In this document: positions 16,417 to 28,452 of the stretch, one piece after another
Position numbering within the stretch: the first letter of the stretch is position 1
Layout of the letters: the number at the start of each line of letters is the position of its first letter
Origin: Bacteroidota bacterium
GTDB lineage: Bacteria > Bacteroidota > Bacteroidia > M30B66
Reading direction: 5' to 3'
DNA length: 64,000 bases
Assembly (NCBI GenBank): GCA_027483445.1
Contig: JAIXUS010000003.1
Coordinates: 1-64,000, forward strand
Notes under the pieces: generated by a model
Told to the model about the DNA's origin: nothing
The model's database searches: none
Seen by the model: only the letters and a program-made list of their open reading frames with translations
Program-made: the position numbers and the translations under genes

Positions 16417-18531
16417 CTAACGGATTACGGTAACACGTCCAATAAACTGCTTTCGGTCGAGTGTAGGTAAGCCGATGTTTATTTTGTAAGAATACACATC
16501 AATAGGAATGTTATCGAGGATTCCACGCGGTCCGGAACCCCACTTTTGATCATAGTTTTCAGTGTAAAATATTTCTTCGCCCCAACGGTTGAAAATAGTC
16601 AGTTCGTAAGAAACAAAGCCTTCACCAACGCCCGAAAACTGATCATTCACGCCATCGCCGTCGGGAGTGAAGGCATTGGGAATCCAAAAGTTAAACGGTG
16701 GGTATGAACGAATCACGTTTGTTACGGTGTCTTCGCAAGCTGCAGAATTAGAGGCAATTAATGTAACAACGTATGTTCCTGTATCGGGAAACGTGTACAG
16801 TGGGTTCCGATCGGTTGATTCCCCAACACCATCTCCAAAATCCCATTCCCAGGTTACTACATCGTCGTACGACAAATCGATAAACTGAACGGTGGAATTA
16901 TCCACATACGACACATTGAAAACAGCTTCTACCTCAATAACGTTCACAACAATGCTTTTCGTTACGCTAATCATGCAGGAGTCGGTTACCGTTAATTTGT
17001 ACTCGGTAGTTTCTTCAGGCTGCACAAAGCGAATAGGCTGATTAAATCCGGGGGTTTCCCAAGCATAAGAAATTGGAGCCTTGCCACCGGTTGAAAAGCC
17101 GGCTATGCGGGCTTCAACACCTTTGCAAATGGTAGTATCGGGACTCAAAAAAAGCTTGAGTGGAACATAATCTACAATGGTAATCAGCACGGAATCTGTG
17201 AATACGCCTCCACATTGATCCTCGACAGTTACCGTATAATAAGCCGTTGAATCGGGGAAAACGATGGCCGGGTTTCCGGGCGAGGCCGTTTCCCATTGCA
17301 CGGTATATGGGCCAACTCCACCCGTTAGCACCGCGTTGAGTGTTACAGGTACTTTGGGACAGCGCTCATTCACCGGTGGCCCGGGAGAGATGGCCAATGG
17401 CGATGGCGGATCAAAAATTTCAAAATCCAGCCGCTTCTCCTCTACCCCGGAACATCCGCTATCGCGGTAAACAATGCTAATGGTTTCTCCATTAGGTTCG
17501 GCGATGCCATCATTAAAGGCAACTACCTGAAAGCTAACAGTAGACTGGTTGGCCGGGAAAGTTACCGTGGTTGGAAAACCTGTGTAATCGACGCCATAGG
17601 TAGCTGTGCCTTCTGCGTCGAGCTCGATGGTCATCGGATTGGCCAAAGGACCGGTTCTGCTGAGATTTACCGTGATAAGACCGCAGTTTTCATACAGTTC
17701 CGTTCCGCCATCTACATAGGAAATTTGTCCCTCTATCTCTACTTCCGGACTGGTAAAGCTTTGTCCTTCAAGAAACACAGCACTGTCGTAAATTCCATCA
17801 CTCACATCGGCAATCACAATGGTAATGGTGTAGGTTTCGCAAGGCTGTACGTTGGCTTGGGCGATAAGCGGGCGGGTAAACCCATCATATTGAACGGTTT
17901 GTCCTCCACCGGAGGTGCCATTCCCATTATTCACGAAATAGATTTGATTGCTTCCGGCATTGATGTTATTGATCGCCACCGGATTTCCGGTACCGGGTAT
18001 GAGGGCGATATTCTGAACCCCAGCGATTCCGGGGCCCTGAATAAAGAAGGCAAACGCATCGTTGTATTGTGAGCCTACAAATTCAGGATATTCTTCGGAG
18101 GCGAATACATATCGGAATTGAACGAGATCGCCTTCGCACACAAAGTTGAAACGAAGCACTGCGGCATCTTCAGTTTCGCCTCCATTGATGAGGGCCTCAA
18201 GCTGAGGAAAGCCGTTGCGGCCTAAATCTTCACCTTCGCTGGGGGAATTATTGGGACCAATCGCATCCTGAATGCGACCGGTTGATAAGATAATTCCGTT
18301 GTTAAGTCCAATATTTGAGTTGCTGCCATTAAACGAACCAATCATTGCAGCGTCTCCCGAAAAAGTTATGCTGGATGCCGTTACGCCATCACCCAACAAC
18401 ACATTATTTACAAGATTGCCTGCAGGTTGCTGACTTACAGACAACTGCGCCTGTGATGTCATCCATGCAAAAGCCAGAATTGAAAAACACAATTCTTTTC
18501 GAAACGATAACAACTTCAACAGGACCTTCAT
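16417..18531 (-). CDS. Choice-of-anchor L / Calx-beta / PKD surface protein with type B T9SS sorting domain
   Basis: 704 residues. The signal segment is MKVLLKLLSFRKELCFSILAFAWMTSQAQ. Residues about 35-260 match the choice-of-anchor L domain ('LVNNVLLGDGVTASSITFSG', 'GIILSTGRIQDAIGPNN', 'FASEEYPEFVGSQYNDAFAF'). A Calx-beta-like domain follows ('GLITVNLSRTGPLANPMTIE ... ATYGVDYTGFP', about 280-370), then Ig/PKD-like domains ('VTWEWDFGDGVGESTDRNPL'). The type B sorting domain closes the protein ('WIPNAFTPDGDGVNDQF', 'IFNRWGEEIFYTEN', 'VYSYKINIG'). It is the first gene of the three-gene minus-strand set and is divergent from the M20 peptidase. Calx-beta domains bind calcium in other proteins; whether this one does cannot be read here. 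Confidence 0.9.
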   Translation of the reverse strand: MKVLLKLLSFRKELCFSILAFAWMTSQAQLSVSQQPAGNLVNNVLLGDGVTASSITFSGDAAMIGSFNGSNSNIGLNNGIILSTGRIQDAIGPNNSPSEGEDLGRNGFPQLEALINGGETEDAAVLRFNFVCEGDLVQFRYVFASEEYPEFVGSQYNDAFAFFIQGPGIAGVQNIALIPGTGNPVAINNINAGSNQIYFVNNGNGTSGGGQTVQYDGFTRPLIAQANVQPCETYTITIVIADVSDGIYDSAVFLEGQSFTSPEVEIEGQISYVDGGTELYENCGLITVNLSRTGPLANPMTIELDAEGTATYGVDYTGFPTTVTFPANQSTVSFQVVAFNDGIAEPNGETISIVYRDSGCSGVEEKRLDFEIFDPPSPLAISPGPPVNERCPKVPVTLNAVLTGGVGPYTVQWETASPGNPAIVFPDSTAYYTVTVEDQCGGVFTDSVLITIVDYVPLKLFLSPDTTICKGVEARIAGFSTGGKAPISYAWETPGFNQPIRFVQPEETTEYKLTVTDSCMISVTKSIVVNVIEVEAVFNVSYVDNSTVQFIDLSYDDVVTWEWDFGDGVGESTDRNPLYTFPDTGTYVVTLIASNSAACEDTVTNVIRSYPPFNFWIPNAFTPDGDGVNDQFSGVGEGFVSYELTIFNRWGEEIFYTENYDQKWGSGPRGILDNIPIDVYSYKINIGLPTLDRKQFIGRVTVIR

Positions 18532-20090: not shown

Positions 20091-20975
20091 ATGATGAAAA
20101 AAACGCTTCTGAATCCCTTCTTTGGGCTGCTGTTATTGTTCAGTTTAGTTTCGGCTTGTACCAAAACAGAGGAGGTTGTGGTTGAAGGCAACAAGCCTCC
20201 ACCCGACAATACTTTACCGGCGGGTGTTCAGGAGAACTTTATCACCAAATCGTATATCGGGTTGCTGGGAAGAGAGCCTGATGATGCGGAGTTTGATGCG
20301 GCTATGCAAAGTTTTAGCACGGATGGATTTACGGCTTCGGTGAGAAAAACAGTGATCAACAGCATTACCGCAAAACCCGATTATCTGCGACGAGAGTTTG
20401 AATTGGCCAACAACGACCTTTTGAATGGCCTGGATACCTTTCAGGTAGTGGATATCATCAACACGTTTACCTTTCTACTCACCCAACCGCAATACGAGCC
20501 CTTTTACGAAACACTGCAGATGGAGCTTGTACGCCTCAATGCTTACCTCAACACCTTTGATCAGGTTCAAAACGGAGGCATTAGTATTCCTGAGATTCAC
20601 CGAAATTGTGTGAACAATTACTTCTTTGATCAAATCAATATGGGTTCGCTCAACTTTGTGCTTGCGACCTTCCAGCTATTGGCTTTGCGCAACCCAACGC
20701 AATTTGAGTTGGACGAAGGAGTTAAGATGACCGATGGCCTCAATGGCATCCTCTTTTTGCAGGAAGGAGATTCGAAATCAGAATTCCTCGACATTTTCTT
20801 TGATTCGGAAGACTATTATTCCGGACAGGTGAAAACCTTGTTTACCCGTTTTCTGTTCCGCAATCCAAGCTCAGAAGAGGCGGTTTATTACACACAGTTA
20901 ATCCGCCAGGCGGATGGCTTTAGAAAATGCATAGCAGAAATTCTTAGCACTGATGAATATGCAGGTCGTAATTAA
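20091..20975 (+). CDS. Lipoprotein with DUF4214/DUF1553-tail-like repeats
   Basis: The open frame begins with a TTG at 20079, but I start at ATG 20091 (MMKKTLL), which opens the lipoprotein signal (lipobox 'LVSAC'). Two segments look alike and like the 'GREP' repeats of DUF4214 and the C-terminal tail of planctomycete DUF1553 proteins. One is 'SYIGLLGREPDDAEFDAAM' (about 55-73) with a following helix ending near 'KPDYLRREF'. The other is 'LFTRFLFRNPSSEEAVYYTQ' at the C-terminus, ending 'ILSTDEYAGRN'. It is predicted to be helical and membrane-anchored on the periplasmic or outer face. It overlaps the next lipoprotein gene by 23 bases and heads the coupled DUF1501 cluster. The family link is from motif shape only. 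Confidence 0.7.
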   Translation: MMKKTLLNPFFGLLLLFSLVSACTKTEEVVVEGNKPPPDNTLPAGVQENFITKSYIGLLGREPDDAEFDAAMQSFSTDGFTASVRKTVINSITAKPDYLRREFELANNDLLNGLDTFQVVDIINTFTFLLTQPQYEPFYETLQMELVRLNAYLNTFDQVQNGGISIPEIHRNCVNNYFFDQINMGSLNFVLATFQLLALRNPTQFELDEGVKMTDGLNGILFLQEGDSKSEFLDIFFDSEDYYSGQVKTLFTRFLFRNPSSEEAVYYTQLIRQADGFRKCIAEILSTDEYAGRN

Positions 20976-21447
20976 AGTAATTGCGGGCATCATGCTCCTA
21001 ACGTCGGTTTCGTGTAAAAAGGAAACAGAGTATGTGTATGCCGTTGAAGATGTGCAGGTTCGCAAAGGTGATGGCTCAAAGACCGTAGCCAAAACGATGG
21101 TTGAGTTTATTTCCATCGCCTATGCGGATGTGTTTGGAAATGCGATTAGTCAAAACCAACTTTCGCAGTTGAGTTTGCTGTACTTATCGTTTGGCGACAA
21201 GCGGCTCCTCGAAGACATGCTGGTGAAGAACATGCTCAATTCTCAACTGGCGGCCATCCCCAGTGATACAGAAATGCGTGCTGATGTGAATGCTTACGTG
21301 AGGAGTACTTATTTGAAGCTTTACAACCGCGAGCCTAACGAGTTAGAAGCCTTTACGCTGGCCAAAGACATCAATGATGATGCAGCAATGCGTTCATCGA
21401 TGGTGTTTTATGCGATGATGACCTCAGATGAATATCGTTTTTACTAA
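20953..21447 (+). CDS. Small lipoprotein, paralogue-like partner of the preceding gene
   Basis: 164 residues. A lipoprotein signal (MNMQVVIKVIAGIMLLTSVSC) leads into two helical blocks. The second ('VRSTYLKLYNREPNELEAFTL ... FYAMMTSDEYRFY') repeats the 'REP ... TSDEY' pattern of the preceding gene and of DUF1553 C-termini ('LsRxPtaeE ... NSxEF'). The start overlaps the preceding gene by 23 bases, which favours translational coupling. ATG 20959 is an alternative start. It precedes the DUF1501 gene by 11 bases, the position a DUF1549/1553 or DUF1800 partner usually takes. The function is unknown. Confidence 0.7.
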   Translation: MNMQVVIKVIAGIMLLTSVSCKKETEYVYAVEDVQVRKGDGSKTVAKTMVEFISIAYADVFGNAISQNQLSQLSLLYLSFGDKRLLEDMLVKNMLNSQLAAIPSDTEMRADVNAYVRSTYLKLYNREPNELEAFTLAKDINDDAAMRSSMVFYAMMTSDEYRFY

Positions 21448-21458
21448 ACAATGGCTTT

Positions 21459-22775
21459 ATGAACAATAGAAATGGGAGAAGAGCCTTTTTAAAAAAGGCA
21501 GCCGCCGCAGGTGCCGGAGCTATTATTGCCCCATACATATTGCCTTCGGGTCGATTGTTTGCGGCCTCAGGCAACAGGGTTGCAAACCATGTGGTGTTTT
21601 GCCTTTTTGCCGGTGGTGTACGAAACATCGAGTCGGTCGCTCAGGATCGGGGAAACTTAATGCCCGGAGTGCTGGGTGGCGGCTTTTCAGTAGCACCTTC
21701 GATTGCACCCGGTATTGACGTATTGCCAAGCTTGCCGGGTGCTTCGCTCAGAAGCCAGGGTACATTGTTTCGGAATTTCCGTTATGCTCAAGGTCCAACC
21801 GGCCATTTTAATGGTCACTCTACAGCCATCACCGGCAGTTATACCCTTCAGGACTTGAGCATTAAAGAGCCGCCAAAGATGCCCACCATTTTTGAGTACT
21901 ACCGGAAGCACAACGACCCGGCTCAATCGGCTCTGAATGCCTGGTGGATTTCGAATACGCTTGGCCCCTACCCTTCGCTCAACTACAGCACATATCCGGG
22001 CTATGGAGCGCTGTACGGGGCGAACTACATGCAGCCGGCCTCCTTAATTACCCAAAGCGGACTAAGTGCCTTGTCGAATCCAATAGCATTTACGGCCCAG
22101 GAGCAGGAGAAAATTGATGGGTTGAAATCTTTTTTCAATCAGAGCTTTCGGTCGGGAGGCACGGTAGACACCGATGGAATTACCAACGCCGAGCTTGATG
22201 GCCTTGAGCTTCAGGATTATATCCGTCAAACCCTTCAGGAAGGCAGCACCGGAGCATTTATTAATCCATGGGGCGTTGGAGCAGCGAACATGAACAACGA
22301 CATGGTGAATGTGTTCTTTGCCGAGCGCATCATACAACGGTTTAAGCCTGAATTACTGGTCGTAAACATGCAGGGAGTGGATATTTGTCACTCGAATTTT
22401 ACCGAATACTGCAACCAGTTGCACAAAGCTGATTATGCGGTGGCTCATCTGTGGCAAACCATTCAGAGTACGCCGGGCATGGCCAACGATACTATTTTAA
22501 TTGTAGCACCTGAACATGGCCGGAACTTTGAGCCGAACACCATATTGGATGTATATGGGCAGCCGGCCATAGACCATACTTCTGATGCTACCTCCAGAGA
22601 GATCTTCTGCCTTGTGGTTGGGCCTCCCGGAAAGGTTGTCCAAAACCAAAGCATCACGCAGGTTACCGGAGAAAGCATTGATATCGTTCCAACCATTGCC
22701 CATGTGCTGGGTTTCCGGGAAAACATTCCGGGAGGCCTTTTAGCCGGTCGGGTGTTAAATGAAGCCTTTGTATGA
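21459..22775 (+). CDS. DUF1501-family protein with twin-arginine signal
   Basis: 438 residues. A Tat signal is clear: RR at residues 7-8 in 'NGRRAFLKKAAAAGAGAIIA'. The rest follows the DUF1501 plan, an alkaline-phosphatase/sulfatase-like fold. An early strand runs 'NHVVFCLFAGGVRNIES', then 'TGHFNGHSTAITG', 'LLVVNMQGVDICHSNFTEYC' and 'ILIVAPEHGRNFEPN' with a conserved H near residue 352. The end reads 'SIDIVPTIAHVLGF'. DUF1501 proteins are exported folded and are usually paired with DUF1800 or DUF1549/DUF1553 proteins. Their reaction is not established. Here the partners are two small lipoproteins upstream and a cytochrome-like lipoprotein that overlaps its stop codon (ATGA). Confidence 0.85.
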   Translation: MNNRNGRRAFLKKAAAAGAGAIIAPYILPSGRLFAASGNRVANHVVFCLFAGGVRNIESVAQDRGNLMPGVLGGGFSVAPSIAPGIDVLPSLPGASLRSQGTLFRNFRYAQGPTGHFNGHSTAITGSYTLQDLSIKEPPKMPTIFEYYRKHNDPAQSALNAWWISNTLGPYPSLNYSTYPGYGALYGANYMQPASLITQSGLSALSNPIAFTAQEQEKIDGLKSFFNQSFRSGGTVDTDGITNAELDGLELQDYIRQTLQEGSTGAFINPWGVGAANMNNDMVNVFFAERIIQRFKPELLVVNMQGVDICHSNFTEYCNQLHKADYAVAHLWQTIQSTPGMANDTILIVAPEHGRNFEPNTILDVYGQPAIDHTSDATSREIFCLVVGPPGKVVQNQSITQVTGESIDIVPTIAHVLGFRENIPGGLLAGRVLNEAFV

Positions 22776-23716
22776 TCAAACCGATTCGTGCAGCCTTGTT
22801 TGGGATTACCGCAATTGCGGTGATGATTTCGGCCTGCCGCAAAGAAGAGCCGATACCCGAAAACCCTTACAGTAAGATTGATTATGGGAGTGATGACCCT
22901 GATGTAGACACTCTGCAACAGAACAGTTTAACGGCCATTCACCGCGACATCCTTTTTCCTAAGTGTGCAGTTCCGGGCTGCCACGACGGAAATTTTGAGC
23001 CCGATTTTCGAACGGTACAGTCGAGCTTCAGCACGCTCGTTTATGCCCCAATTGTTAAAAACAATGCAGCCGGAAGCTTTTTGTTTCGCGTAATTCCAGG
23101 TGATACGGCAGGTTCAGTTTTGCACGAACGCATTACCAATTGTTGCTTTGTGAACGTAGACGATCGAATGCCACAGGACAATATCGGAACAGGCTTACCG
23201 GCTGCCGAAATCAACCGCATCAGCACCTGGATTTTACAGGGAGCCAAAGATGCGGAAGGTAACGAAGCGGAGCGGCCCGACATTGAGCCATCGCTTTCGT
23301 TTTACGTGGCCGCAAACAGTACGTTTAACGTCGAGCTTTCGGCACTCGCATTTCGCGAAGACTCGCTGATTTACAATCCCTTCAGGCTACCGGCGGGCAC
23401 CACCAGCTTCTTTTTTGTTCCATTGGTAACTGATGACATCACGCCTTTGGCGCAACTACAATACAACAAACTGTATCTGAGCACCTCGATGGACGATTTT
23501 AGCAATGCCATTCAACTGCAGGCGAGCTTCGTAAATGTGCCCAACCAGCAACCTGTGTGGGTGGTTAATGTGCCCGCCTCAACCTTAAATACCGGTGTGC
23601 AGTACTTTATGCGTTACTACGTGAACGACGGCAACCACACCAACAATACCGAATTTCCTAAAACCGAATCCAACGACTTGTACAAGTCATATTGGAGCTT
23701 CATCATCACTCCTTAA
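22772..23716 (+). CDS. Lipoprotein with a PSCYT1-like c-type cytochrome domain
   Basis: 314 residues. The lipoprotein signal ends 'VMISAC' (Cys22). Residues about 55-160 resemble the planctomycete-type cytochrome c domain (PSCYT1). 'HRDILFPKCAVPGCHDG' holds a candidate heme site Cys65-x4-Cys70-His71. It is followed by 'FRVIPGDTAGSVLHERI', 'DDRMPQDNIGTGLPAAEINR' and 'ISTWILQGAKD', the usual 'PGdxxxSxLxxri ... MP ... I..WI..GA' signature. The CX4CH spacing differs from the standard CXXCH, so heme attachment is not certain. The C-terminal half is an uncharacterised beta domain. The gene overlaps the DUF1501 stop by four bases and the next start by one base. Confidence 0.78.
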   Translation: MIKPIRAALFGITAIAVMISACRKEEPIPENPYSKIDYGSDDPDVDTLQQNSLTAIHRDILFPKCAVPGCHDGNFEPDFRTVQSSFSTLVYAPIVKNNAAGSFLFRVIPGDTAGSVLHERITNCCFVNVDDRMPQDNIGTGLPAAEINRISTWILQGAKDAEGNEAERPDIEPSLSFYVAANSTFNVELSALAFREDSLIYNPFRLPAGTTSFFFVPLVTDDITPLAQLQYNKLYLSTSMDDFSNAIQLQASFVNVPNQQPVWVVNVPASTLNTGVQYFMRYYVNDGNHTNNTEFPKTESNDLYKSYWSFIITP

Positions 23717-24156
23717 TGCGCGCTACCTTACTTTTGATTTTTGGCCTTTTCCTGATTACCTCCTGTAACAAAGACGATAACCAGGAAGTGGGCGACACCC
23801 CAGTAATTATGTTTGAGAGTATCTCGCCTGGAACGGCAAAGGCTTACAGCGATTCTGTAGTTATTCGTGTTCAATACGAAGATGGCAATGGCGATTTGGG
23901 AGAGAACAACACCACCGAATCGAATGCTTTTGTTACCGATACTCGGAGCGGACTAGAGTACCAATTCAGAATCAGGCAGTTGGCGCCAAACGACGCAAAT
24001 ATTCACATCCGTGGAAGCCTGAATATTGTGGTTCCTCAGGTTGCGTTTATTGGCAGTGGAAGCAGCGAAACAGCCACCTTTAAGGTAAAGATAGAAGATC
24101 GAGCAGGCAATATGAGCAACGAGATTACGACCACGGCCATTACAGTTACACCTTAA
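23716..24156 (+). CDS. Small Ig-like lipoprotein
   Basis: I start at ATG 23716, which overlaps the previous stop as TAATG. The frame open from 23692 begins with TTG and adds eight residues before the signal. The lipoprotein signal (MRATLLLIFGLFLITSC) precedes a beta-sandwich-like domain ('SDSVVIRVQYEDGNGDLGEN' ... 'ATFKVKIEDRAGNMSNE'). The 'YEDGNGDLG' motif recurs in Bacteroidota lipoproteins of unknown function. The junction suggests coupled translation with the cytochrome-like lipoprotein. Confidence 0.78.
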   Translation: MRATLLLIFGLFLITSCNKDDNQEVGDTPVIMFESISPGTAKAYSDSVVIRVQYEDGNGDLGENNTTESNAFVTDTRSGLEYQFRIRQLAPNDANIHIRGSLNIVVPQVAFIGSGSSETATFKVKIEDRAGNMSNEITTTAITVTP

Positions 24157-24627
24157 ATGAAGCTTATCAGGCTTGGCCTTTTAATTTTTACACTTGCCTT
24201 TAGCTTCGGCTCATGCGCCTCGTATAAAGATGTGCAAATGCCAGAGATAGAACGCATCAGCAATGTTCGTACGGGCGATTTAAAGGAGGGTCGATTGGCC
24301 ATTAGTTTTACAACAGAAATAAGGAATCCCGATAAGCTCAAGTTCAGAATCAGGCGTGTTCAGCTCGATGTGATGCTTAATGGAAACAAGGTGGGTGAAA
24401 TCAGCAGTAACCGTGTGATTCGCATCCGCAACTTGTTGCAGGCTCAGGTAGAATGGACGCTTATGGCCGATCTGAAGGCATTGATTAAACCGGGAATGTT
24501 ACTCAACCTTGCACTTTCGGGGCGGCCTCAGCTGGGCGTTGAAGGCCATGTGCGGGTTTCGAAGTTTCTGTTTCGCAAAACCATACCGGTGAAGCTGAAT
24601 ACGCCCGTCAGCCTGCCTAAATTTTAA
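24157..24627 (+). CDS. LEA14-like (LEA type 2) lipoprotein
   Basis: 156 residues. A lipoprotein signal ([20 protein letters not shown]) is followed by a single LEA type 2/WHy-like beta domain ('[20 protein letters not shown]', '[16 protein letters not shown]', '[20 protein letters not shown]'). Such Bacteroidota lipoproteins sit in the periplasm or outer membrane and have no known enzymatic role. The ATG directly follows the previous stop codon with no gap, so it belongs to the same transcript. Confidence 0.82.
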
Positions 24628-26644: not shown

Positions 26645-27763
26645 ATGAAAAACGCTACGCTCATCAGTGCACTTTTTCTGGCCATAGCCTGGCAATCGTG
26701 CAAAAAAGAAGAAGTGCCTTCAACTACGGCCACTGGCAGTCCGGTGCTTCCCGCGACGCCTTATGCGTATTACGACGCCAGTCATTCCGATTCCCAGATT
26801 AACCACAAGGCCACTTTGGGAAGAGTGTTGTTTTACGAAAAGCGCCTTTCGCTGAACAACAGTGTTTCATGCGGTTCCTGCCACAAGCAATCGGCGGGTT
26901 TTGCCGATAATGCGAGGTTTAGTCGTGGATTGAACAATGAACTCACCGACCGAAATTCGATGCCGGTGATGAACCTTCCTACCGTGCTGGGCGTGTTTCC
27001 CGGCATTGGTCCCGGCGTCGACCTCTTTATGACCAGGGTTTTCTTTTGGGATGGCCGTGAGCGCGACTTGCGCAGTTTGGTAAGCCGCCCGATTGCCAAT
27101 CACATCGAGATGGGTGTTGATGACCCTTCATCGCTCATTCCGCGCCTTCAGGCTTTGCCCTATTATCCAGAATTGGTGAAAAAAGCATTTGGTGATGAGC
27201 AAATTACCCTGAATAGGCTGGCCGATGCCGTTGCGGTATTCATGGAATCGATTCAATCGAAAAACACCAAGTTTGATGAATACATCGCGCAACAAAGCAA
27301 ACCCGGAATACTCAACGCGCAAGAAGAGGCAGGGTACCAATTGTTTCTCAGCAAATACAACTGCAGTGGATGCCATAACCCTTTCCCGGGCGAATACAAT
27401 AGTCCAGAACCCAAGAACATTGGGCTTGACGCTTATTCACCCGACCCCGGAATGGCAAGCATAACCGGGAATGCAGCCGATCGTGGAAAGTTTAAAGTAC
27501 CGATACTCCGAAATATCGCTCAAACCGCACCGTACATGCATGATGGTCGATTTAAGACGCTGGAAGAGGTAATTGACCATTATTCGAATGGAATTCAAGA
27601 TTCTGAAAGTTTGCATCCATTGCTTAAAAATGCACAAGGAAGCCCGTTAAAGATGACAATTCCAGATCACGAAAAGCGCGCACTTATTGCTTTCCTGCAC
27701 GCACTTACCGATTACCAAGTTTTGTCGGACCCCAAGTTTTCTGATCCTTTCCAATCATTCTGA
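26645..27763 (+). CDS. MauG/cytochrome c peroxidase-family di-heme lipoprotein
   Basis: 372 residues. A lipoprotein signal ends 'AIAWQSC' (Cys19). Two heme-binding motifs are present: C76-GS-C79-H80 and C240-SG-C243-H244. Family blocks 'GRVLFYEKRLSLNNSVSC', 'RVFFWDGRERDL', 'VPILRNIAQTAPYMHDGRFK' and 'TLEEVIDHYSNGI' are all there. These are bacterial di-heme cytochrome c peroxidase/MauG proteins that reduce H2O2 or carry out oxidations in the periplasm. The lipid anchor would fix it to a membrane. The gene overlaps the next start by one base (TGATG). Confidence 0.93.
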   Translation: MKNATLISALFLAIAWQSCKKEEVPSTTATGSPVLPATPYAYYDASHSDSQINHKATLGRVLFYEKRLSLNNSVSCGSCHKQSAGFADNARFSRGLNNELTDRNSMPVMNLPTVLGVFPGIGPGVDLFMTRVFFWDGRERDLRSLVSRPIANHIEMGVDDPSSLIPRLQALPYYPELVKKAFGDEQITLNRLADAVAVFMESIQSKNTKFDEYIAQQSKPGILNAQEEAGYQLFLSKYNCSGCHNPFPGEYNSPEPKNIGLDAYSPDPGMASITGNAADRGKFKVPILRNIAQTAPYMHDGRFKTLEEVIDHYSNGIQDSESLHPLLKNAQGSPLKMTIPDHEKRALIAFLHALTDYQVLSDPKFSDPFQSF

Positions 27764-28452
27764 TGCGCAGTTTACTTATTACCGGCCTGTGTTTGCTCAG
27801 TGTTGGGCTCAGGGCTCAGAATTCCGGAGAAACAACGGCAAAATGGCAGCATACGATAAGCGTCCAGATAAATCCGTTGCTTCGACAACTCTTCAGTTTC
27901 GGTGATGTTGAAGCAGACAACACACCCTTTTTGATGAACTATCACCTCAACTCAGCCAAACATGGCTGGGGAGCTCGGGTTGGGGTTGGACTGAACTATT
28001 TAGAGGTGAAAGACAATGATGGAATTACGGCGCGCAATACCGGACAAACGCAGTATGCCATCCGCCTTGGCGCCGAACGTAAAATAGACCTGGGAAAACG
28101 CTGGGAAGTAGGTTATGGCTTGGATGCCGTAATGCAGCGCGACGAAAACAATACAACCACGGTGGTGAGTTCGTTCGACACGATCACAACAGTTTCGAGG
28201 AACAGCATCACCCAACTGGGTGGTGGGGCCATGGTTTGGATTCGGTTTCGGTTGTCGGAACGCATCCTCATCGGAACAGAAAGTAGCGTTTACTACCAAA
28301 CCGGAACTTTGCGCGAAAATATTGAGGTTACACGGCGAAATTTCAGCATACCCGGAGCGCCTCAAACCACCACCAAAAACACATTCAACACCACGCTCAC
28401 GGAGCTTCCTTTCAGGGTTCCCATTTCGGTGTTTCTGGCGATTCGTTTTTGA
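27763..28452 (+). CDS. Outer-membrane beta-barrel-like protein
   Basis: 229 residues. A signal peptide (MRSLLITGLCLLSVGLRAQ) is followed by alternating amphipathic strands rich in aromatic and glycine residues ('GWGARVGVGLNYLEV', 'AIRLGAERKIDLGKRWEVGY', 'RILIGTESSVYYQTG'). It ends in a terminal aromatic strand 'VPISVFLAIRF'. The final Phe is typical for barrels folded by BamA. It overlaps the di-heme peroxidase gene by one base, so the two are probably coupled. No substrate can be read from the sequence. Confidence 0.78.
   Translation: MRSLLITGLCLLSVGLRAQNSGETTAKWQHTISVQINPLLRQLFSFGDVEADNTPFLMNYHLNSAKHGWGARVGVGLNYLEVKDNDGITARNTGQTQYAIRLGAERKIDLGKRWEVGYGLDAVMQRDENNTTTVVSSFDTITTVSRNSITQLGGGAMVWIRFRLSERILIGTESSVYYQTGTLRENIEVTRRNFSIPGAPQTTTKNTFNTTLTELPFRVPISVFLAIRF

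Follow-up and report, generated by a model that had tools for sequence, protein, structure and literature searches.

A conserved five-gene set of Bacteroidota joins a PSCyt1-related haem lipoprotein to a protein of predicted alkaline phosphatase fold with an altered active site

Systems made up of PSCyt1-DUF1549(PSCyt2)-DUF1553(PSD1) proteins and DUF1501 proteins occur in Planctomycetes, Verrucomicrobia and some Bacteroidota. Five adjoining genes, here called A to E, in a 64,000-nucleotide stretch of a Bacteroidota genome (contig JAIXUS010000003.1 of assembly GCA_027483445.1; hereafter the window) were originally predicted to be a split version of such a system, which raises the question of whether they form a unit, what its parts are related to and what they may do together.

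The spacing of the five genes (Table 1) is exactly as the original prediction described it: A and B overlap by 23 bases, the conserved A ending 'DEYAG' being read from the sequence over the B start 'MNMQ', an 11-base gap separates B from C, C and D overlap by 4 bases (ATGA), and D and E by a single base (TAATG). The GREP...(S/T)DEY motifs that it had pointed out are found in both A and B. Lipoprotein signals stand at the start of A, B, D and E and a Tat signal at the start of C (TIGR01409, 18.8 bits against the NCBIfam cut-off of 16.7). When homologues are read as simple first-start frames, lipobox-like signals appear in 65 of 71 A, 63 of 75 B, 67 of 76 D and 68 of 74 E proteins. Among the export signals of Bacteroidota lipoproteins, an acidic pair after the lipid-modified cysteine points to the cell surface; roughly half of the homologues of A and of E carry such a pair, fewer D and few B proteins do, and its presence would place A and E at the surface. 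A promoter and terminator scan of the locus gave signals near or below the shuffled expectation. Because the LEA_2 gene directly downstream follows E only in close relatives and a few others, it is regarded as a neighbour and not as a part of the module.

Table 1. Positions of the five genes, their notable regions, neighbouring genes and related loci
Feature	Position	Strand	Description
Gene A	20091..20975	+	Lipoprotein, all-helical, two related DUF4214/PBS-linker-like units (GREP...DEY)
Gene B	20953..21447	+	Lipoprotein; single DUF4214/PBS-linker-like unit at C-terminus
Gene C	21459..22775	+	Tat-exported protein of predicted alkaline phosphatase superfamily fold; altered active site; C-specific helical insert
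Conserved stretch of C	21531..21572	+	PYILPSGRLFAA(S/T)G, codons 25-38, end of Tat signal region
Helical-insert region of C	22026..22340	+	Codons ~190-294; proposed docking region
Gene D	22772..23716	+	Lipoprotein; monohaem PSCyt1-like domain (CX4CH, later Met-Pro) and C-terminal domain without family assignment
Gene E	23716..24156	+	Small lipoprotein, possibly Ig-like, without family
LEA_2 lipoprotein	24157-24627		Directly after E
T9SS protein	16417-18531	-	Choice-of-anchor L, Calx-beta and PKD protein with T9SS (CHU_C) sorting domain
Di-haem peroxidase	26645-27763		MauG/MbnH-type lipoprotein; CCP_MauG 7e-46; MbnH model 214.9 bits, below cut-off
Possible outer-membrane beta-barrel	27763-28452		After the di-haem peroxidase gene; judged from sequence
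Shortened C proteins	L052:9626-10723; L226:2168-3094		No helical insert, C-terminal motifs kept; genomes in which A and D were not found
Module remnant in G082	L225:6704-8311	-	Pieces of A and D with E
Broken type 1 D (L046)	G064:C1:3985995-3986888		Interrupted by stop codons
DUF1501-DUF1800 pair (L147, L173)	G000:C9:78634-81182		Canonical pair in the genome of the window

The evidence that A to E belong together comes from two surveys, in which most genomes are metagenome-assembled: a search with C as query against 100 related genomes, and a scan of GTDB genome contigs that gave 80 loci, labelled Bacteroidota or uncultured bacterium, from genomes partly shared with the first set. The search returned about 23 close copies of C, 53-74% identical to it, and a further group with identities near 40%; these groups are the types 1 and 2 described below. 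In the contig scan, the A-B-C-D-E order is complete in 70 of the 80 loci, all from other genomes; six loci run into the end of a contig, and the remaining four are real exceptions. Flanking genes outside A-E differ from locus to locus; because the order is kept while they vary, A-E can be treated as a unit and chance association excluded. The conservation of gene order on which the original prediction had been made to depend is therefore present. One carrier among cultured species is Phaeocystidibacter luteus (L129).

The strongest evidence for the unit is provided by the exceptions, in which the operon is scattered. C stands alone in two Cytophagales (L128 and L130), with D in L124 and with B in L132; A, D and E of the same four genomes are found elsewhere, save that D lies beside C in L124, and B adjoins A in three of them. 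All four retain the five genes, spread over three to four loci. Strong matches of A, C and D coincide in 32 of the 100 related genomes, and three more hold a trace, in the form of reduced or damaged remnants only. In G082, an N-terminal piece of A adjoins a fragment of D and an E that looks intact, and a search of this genome found no C. G008 and G002 carry a shortened C, and A and D were found in neither; this absence is probably real in G008, since that genome is rated 100% complete, while G002 is 84% complete and its C locus lies at a contig end. One of the shortened proteins, L226, has exchanged the GHF of motif 2 for SHY and is truncated by the end of its contig. The two partnerless genomes show that C can persist by itself, for some time at least. 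Of 296 genomes sampled from the whole phylum, the same two contain A and full-length C, so the module is rare overall; environmental Bacteroidia retain or lose the five genes as a set. Altogether, A-E are well supported as one five-part unit and very probably form one machine, of which no published description was found in the papers searchable around DUF1501, DUF1800, DUF1549/DUF1553, PSCyt1 and DUF4214.

C had been taken for a Tat-exported DUF1501 protein; the Tat signal is borne out and the family assignment is not. The PF07394 model missed C in a search of its own genome, in which it found the true DUF1501 protein, and it gives weak matches in 3 of 31 C homologues (best 2.6e-4). A first profile match between C and DUF1501 (91%, 1e-6) was discarded, the scoring segment being the Tat signal; outside the signal peptide, the comparison gives P values of 0.012-0.1 for a best decoy of 0.069. 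C itself scores 25.1 bits against PF01663 (cut-off 23), and its family matches are Phosphodiest first and Sulfatase next. Its AF2 model (pLDDT 83) has 442 fold matches in the PDB with E <= 0.001, the best at 8.9e-11, and the top ones are sulfatases and phosphodiesterases, so that the predicted fold is that of the alkaline phosphatase (AP) superfamily. In the conserved stretch that closes the Tat signal region, P25, P29, G31, R32, L33, F34 and A35 are invariant in 31 homologues. The closest relatives found for C are phosphodiesterase-like proteins of the AP superfamily in Bacteroidota and relatives (P 2e-36; e.g. L207 and L208), which have neither its helical insert nor its partner genes and most of which keep a complete site (DGxR, T..GH, DxxxH, DHGR and HG). 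Several of these proteins (L207-L217) have a C-terminal extension that, by eye, resembles a secretion-sorting tail.

C departs from these relatives in its motifs. Gly replaces the metal-binding Asp of DGxR (motif 1); their nucleophile Thr falls, in a low-identity alignment, opposite an invariant His; and their DxxxH, DHGR and H-G read DxxH, E-x-G-R and D-H in C. The aligned C proteins therefore do not present a complete two-metal site with a Thr/Ser nucleophile. These changes bear on the reading, rather unlikely in our view, that C is an AP-superfamily enzyme which actively hydrolyses phospho- or sulfo-esters at an unusual metal site and is held and fed by A, B and E, with D as a redox sensor or structural haem protein and the operon serving to scavenge phosphorus or sulfur. 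The family matches, the fold matches and the complete metal sites of the closest relatives all speak for such an enzyme; against it, all 31 aligned homologues have Gly for the motif-1 Asp and Glu for the Asp of DHG, the residue after that Glu varies between His, Cys and Ile, and among the loci compared no transporter or regulator gene is conserved beside the module.

The same altered states (GG, H, D-x-H, E-x-G-R and D-H) are shared by DUF1501 proteins, given that C has D-x2-H for their D-x-H, that one DUF1501 protein has Ala as the second residue of GG and that the motif-2 His was matched by eye, the joint alignment misplacing DUF1501 there. These apparently shared states may reflect either common descent or convergence. 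A further mark of C is the helical insert. The stretch from codon 184 to codon 299 measures 112-116 residues in all module C proteins, as against 31-55 in the phosphodiesterase-like relatives; it is of full length in the four scattered operons and measures 45 and 56 residues in the two partnerless C proteins, which come from one family and may represent a single event. Because the insert is full length where the partners are present, even when scattered, and shortened where they are missing, these lengths suggest that it is a docking site.

For the remaining proteins, the likeness of A, B, D and E in untrimmed profiles proved to be largely lipoprotein signal, and all comparisons were redone on sequences trimmed of their signal peptides, 11 unrelated local families serving as decoys. 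D has invariant C65, C70, H71 and M133 in 28 homologues, and its CX4CH haem motif is present in 74 of 76 D proteins, the two exceptions coming from N-terminally truncated frames; its conserved Met-Pro likely provides the axial ligand. None of the 28 homologues gives a direct Pfam match to PSCyt1, and the motif CXXCH is absent. Even so, the first domain of D matches PSCyt1 with a P value of 4e-11 (best decoy 0.18), and by this profile evidence the haem domain is related to PSCyt1. The original description of D as a PSCYT1-like cytochrome lipoprotein thus holds by homology, with a haem motif of its own.

A is all helical in its AF2 model (pLDDT 90); its two halves are homologous to each other (P 1e-8) and B is related to both (P 1e-5). 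The A protein of the window passes PF00427 (29.2 bits, cut-off 28.7) and falls below PF13946 (20.6 bits, cut-off 23.2). DUF4214 matches are found in 27 of 29 A and 24 of 32 B homologues, the window's own DUF4214 scores lying under the cut-off. The sequence unit and motif that A and B have in common are thus those of phycobilisome linkers (PF00427) and DUF4214; unlike phycobilisome linkers, A and B are lipid-anchored, and there is no phycobilisome here. A search of the PDB by fold gave weak matches for A, with phycobilisome linkers among the best and none with E <= 0.001. The second half of A matches the middle of DUF1800 (P 2e-5, best decoy 0.08), for which one of the 29 A homologues has a Pfam match, at 0.041. 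Its first half matches DUF1549 at P 5e-4 (decoy 0.025), and A is not above noise against DUF1553; the alignment of PSCyt1-DUF1549-DUF1553 proteins comprises five sequences. The expected kinship of the two lipoproteins is therefore found with DUF4214 and, moderately, between A and DUF1800; that with DUF1549 and DUF1553 is weak and not demonstrable. E gave no significant family in domain searches and no match to solved structures. It is a small lipoprotein with a conserved place in the module, and its putative Ig-like character is plausible.

How far, then, does the module correspond to the known systems? Like the PSCyt1/DUF1501 systems, it has a PSCyt1-type haem domain and a Tat-exported AP-like partner whose motif states are those listed above. 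Unlike them, it consists of separate lipoproteins, with CX4CH in D, with a C protein that does not pass the DUF1501 model, with A and B of the DUF4214/PBS-linker type and with E as an extra subunit. It resembles DUF1800-DUF1501 pairs in that a helical protein, its C-terminal half moderately similar to DUF1800, stands beside a Tat-exported AP-like protein; such pairs are themselves without a cytochrome, and a canonical one lies elsewhere in the same genome. We consider it unlikely that the module is a true split homologue of the planctomycete system, with each part derived from the matching part and the same function retained. The homology of D to PSCyt1, the weak PSD1 and PSCyt2 matches among A homologues (9 and 3 of 29) and the residues common to C and DUF1501 favour this origin, but C is far nearer to the phosphodiesterase-like proteins than to DUF1501 (P 0.013), A and B reach PSCyt2 and PSD1 at P values of 5e-4 to 0.02, the former being the best, and E has no counterpart. 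What survives of the original prediction is one conserved Bacteroidota unit of five lipid-anchored or exported parts, with a PSCyt1-related D, DUF1501-like active-site residues in C and a DUF1800-like stretch in A.

The genome of the window also carries a second, paralogous set (G000:C51), and the two are distinguished as type 1 (that of the window) and type 2. Both types keep the A-B-C-D-E order, and the split between them, supported at 0.999-1.0 in all five gene trees, is as would be expected of a duplication of the whole module; the distance correlations between the five trees would also be expected from plain vertical descent. In one genome (G064), D of type 1 is broken by stop codons and the type 2 copy is open. 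Type 2 sets usually carry a sixth gene, X, directly after E, which encodes a T9SS-secreted giant; PKD and T9SS type B sorting domains are present in it, and one of the two X proteins scanned has a CUB domain as well. The loci compared show no conserved sixth gene for type 1. A T9SS type B protein is encoded near several type 1 sets, including that of the window, where the gene is divergent from an M20 peptidase gene upstream of the module, a layout recurring in several type 1 loci. The M20 peptidase gene is often beside type 1 sets but often absent, and was set aside as a neighbour, as were the downstream MbnH-type di-haem gene and a DsbH gene, which are not generally conserved beside the module. 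That the complex is an assembly or attachment module that processes or anchors T9SS-secreted giants such as X is very unlikely: the frequent presence of X in type 2 and of T9SS type B proteins near type 1 fits this role, but type 1 has no conserved sixth gene, and T9SS cargo genes are so common in Bacteroidia that neighbourhood alone is a weak argument.

The best explanation of the whole, which we hold tentatively, is that A-E form a complex of the cell envelope, where C, whose metal site would be non-canonical, works together with the electron carrier D on scaffolds made of A and B. In this model, A and B would form a helical scaffold at the outer membrane, on which C would dock via its extra helical insert. 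C would have lost the ordinary phosphoesterase role, because its motif-1 Asp is replaced by Gly and an invariant His takes the place of the nucleophile, and its D/H/E/H/H cluster is predicted probably to hold a metal. D may carry single electrons to or from C and is the one part from which the putative redox role is derived, the chemistry of the complex being inferred. Redox chemistry is preferred to hydrolysis because a cytochrome adjoins the rebuilt AP fold. The complex would then use redox chemistry to modify a substrate in the envelope or outside the cell; in type 2 sets, the giant X may be its partner or its product. A carbohydrate-type substrate is the best guess, because of the company kept by PSCyt proteins: in Verrucomicrobia, PSCyt genes come with carbohydrate-binding modules and sulfatase neighbours (PMC5615132), and DUF1501-DUF1800 pairs travel with bacterial chitin synthase genes (PMC5122149). 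Both associations may serve as leads.

In its furthest form, which we regard as doubtful, this explanation would make the module an undescribed five-component envelope redox machine, in which a remodelled AP fold provides a metal centre that does not hydrolyse and that a cytochrome serves. DUF1501 proteins would have undergone the same remodelling, in one event or two, so that the module could hold the clue to what the PSCyt1/DUF1501/DUF1800 group as a whole does. Here the related parts are separate subunits, kept together even after the operon has been broken, and they are present in a cultured species. They can thus be deleted and purified one by one, which the fused proteins of the planctomycete type do not allow.
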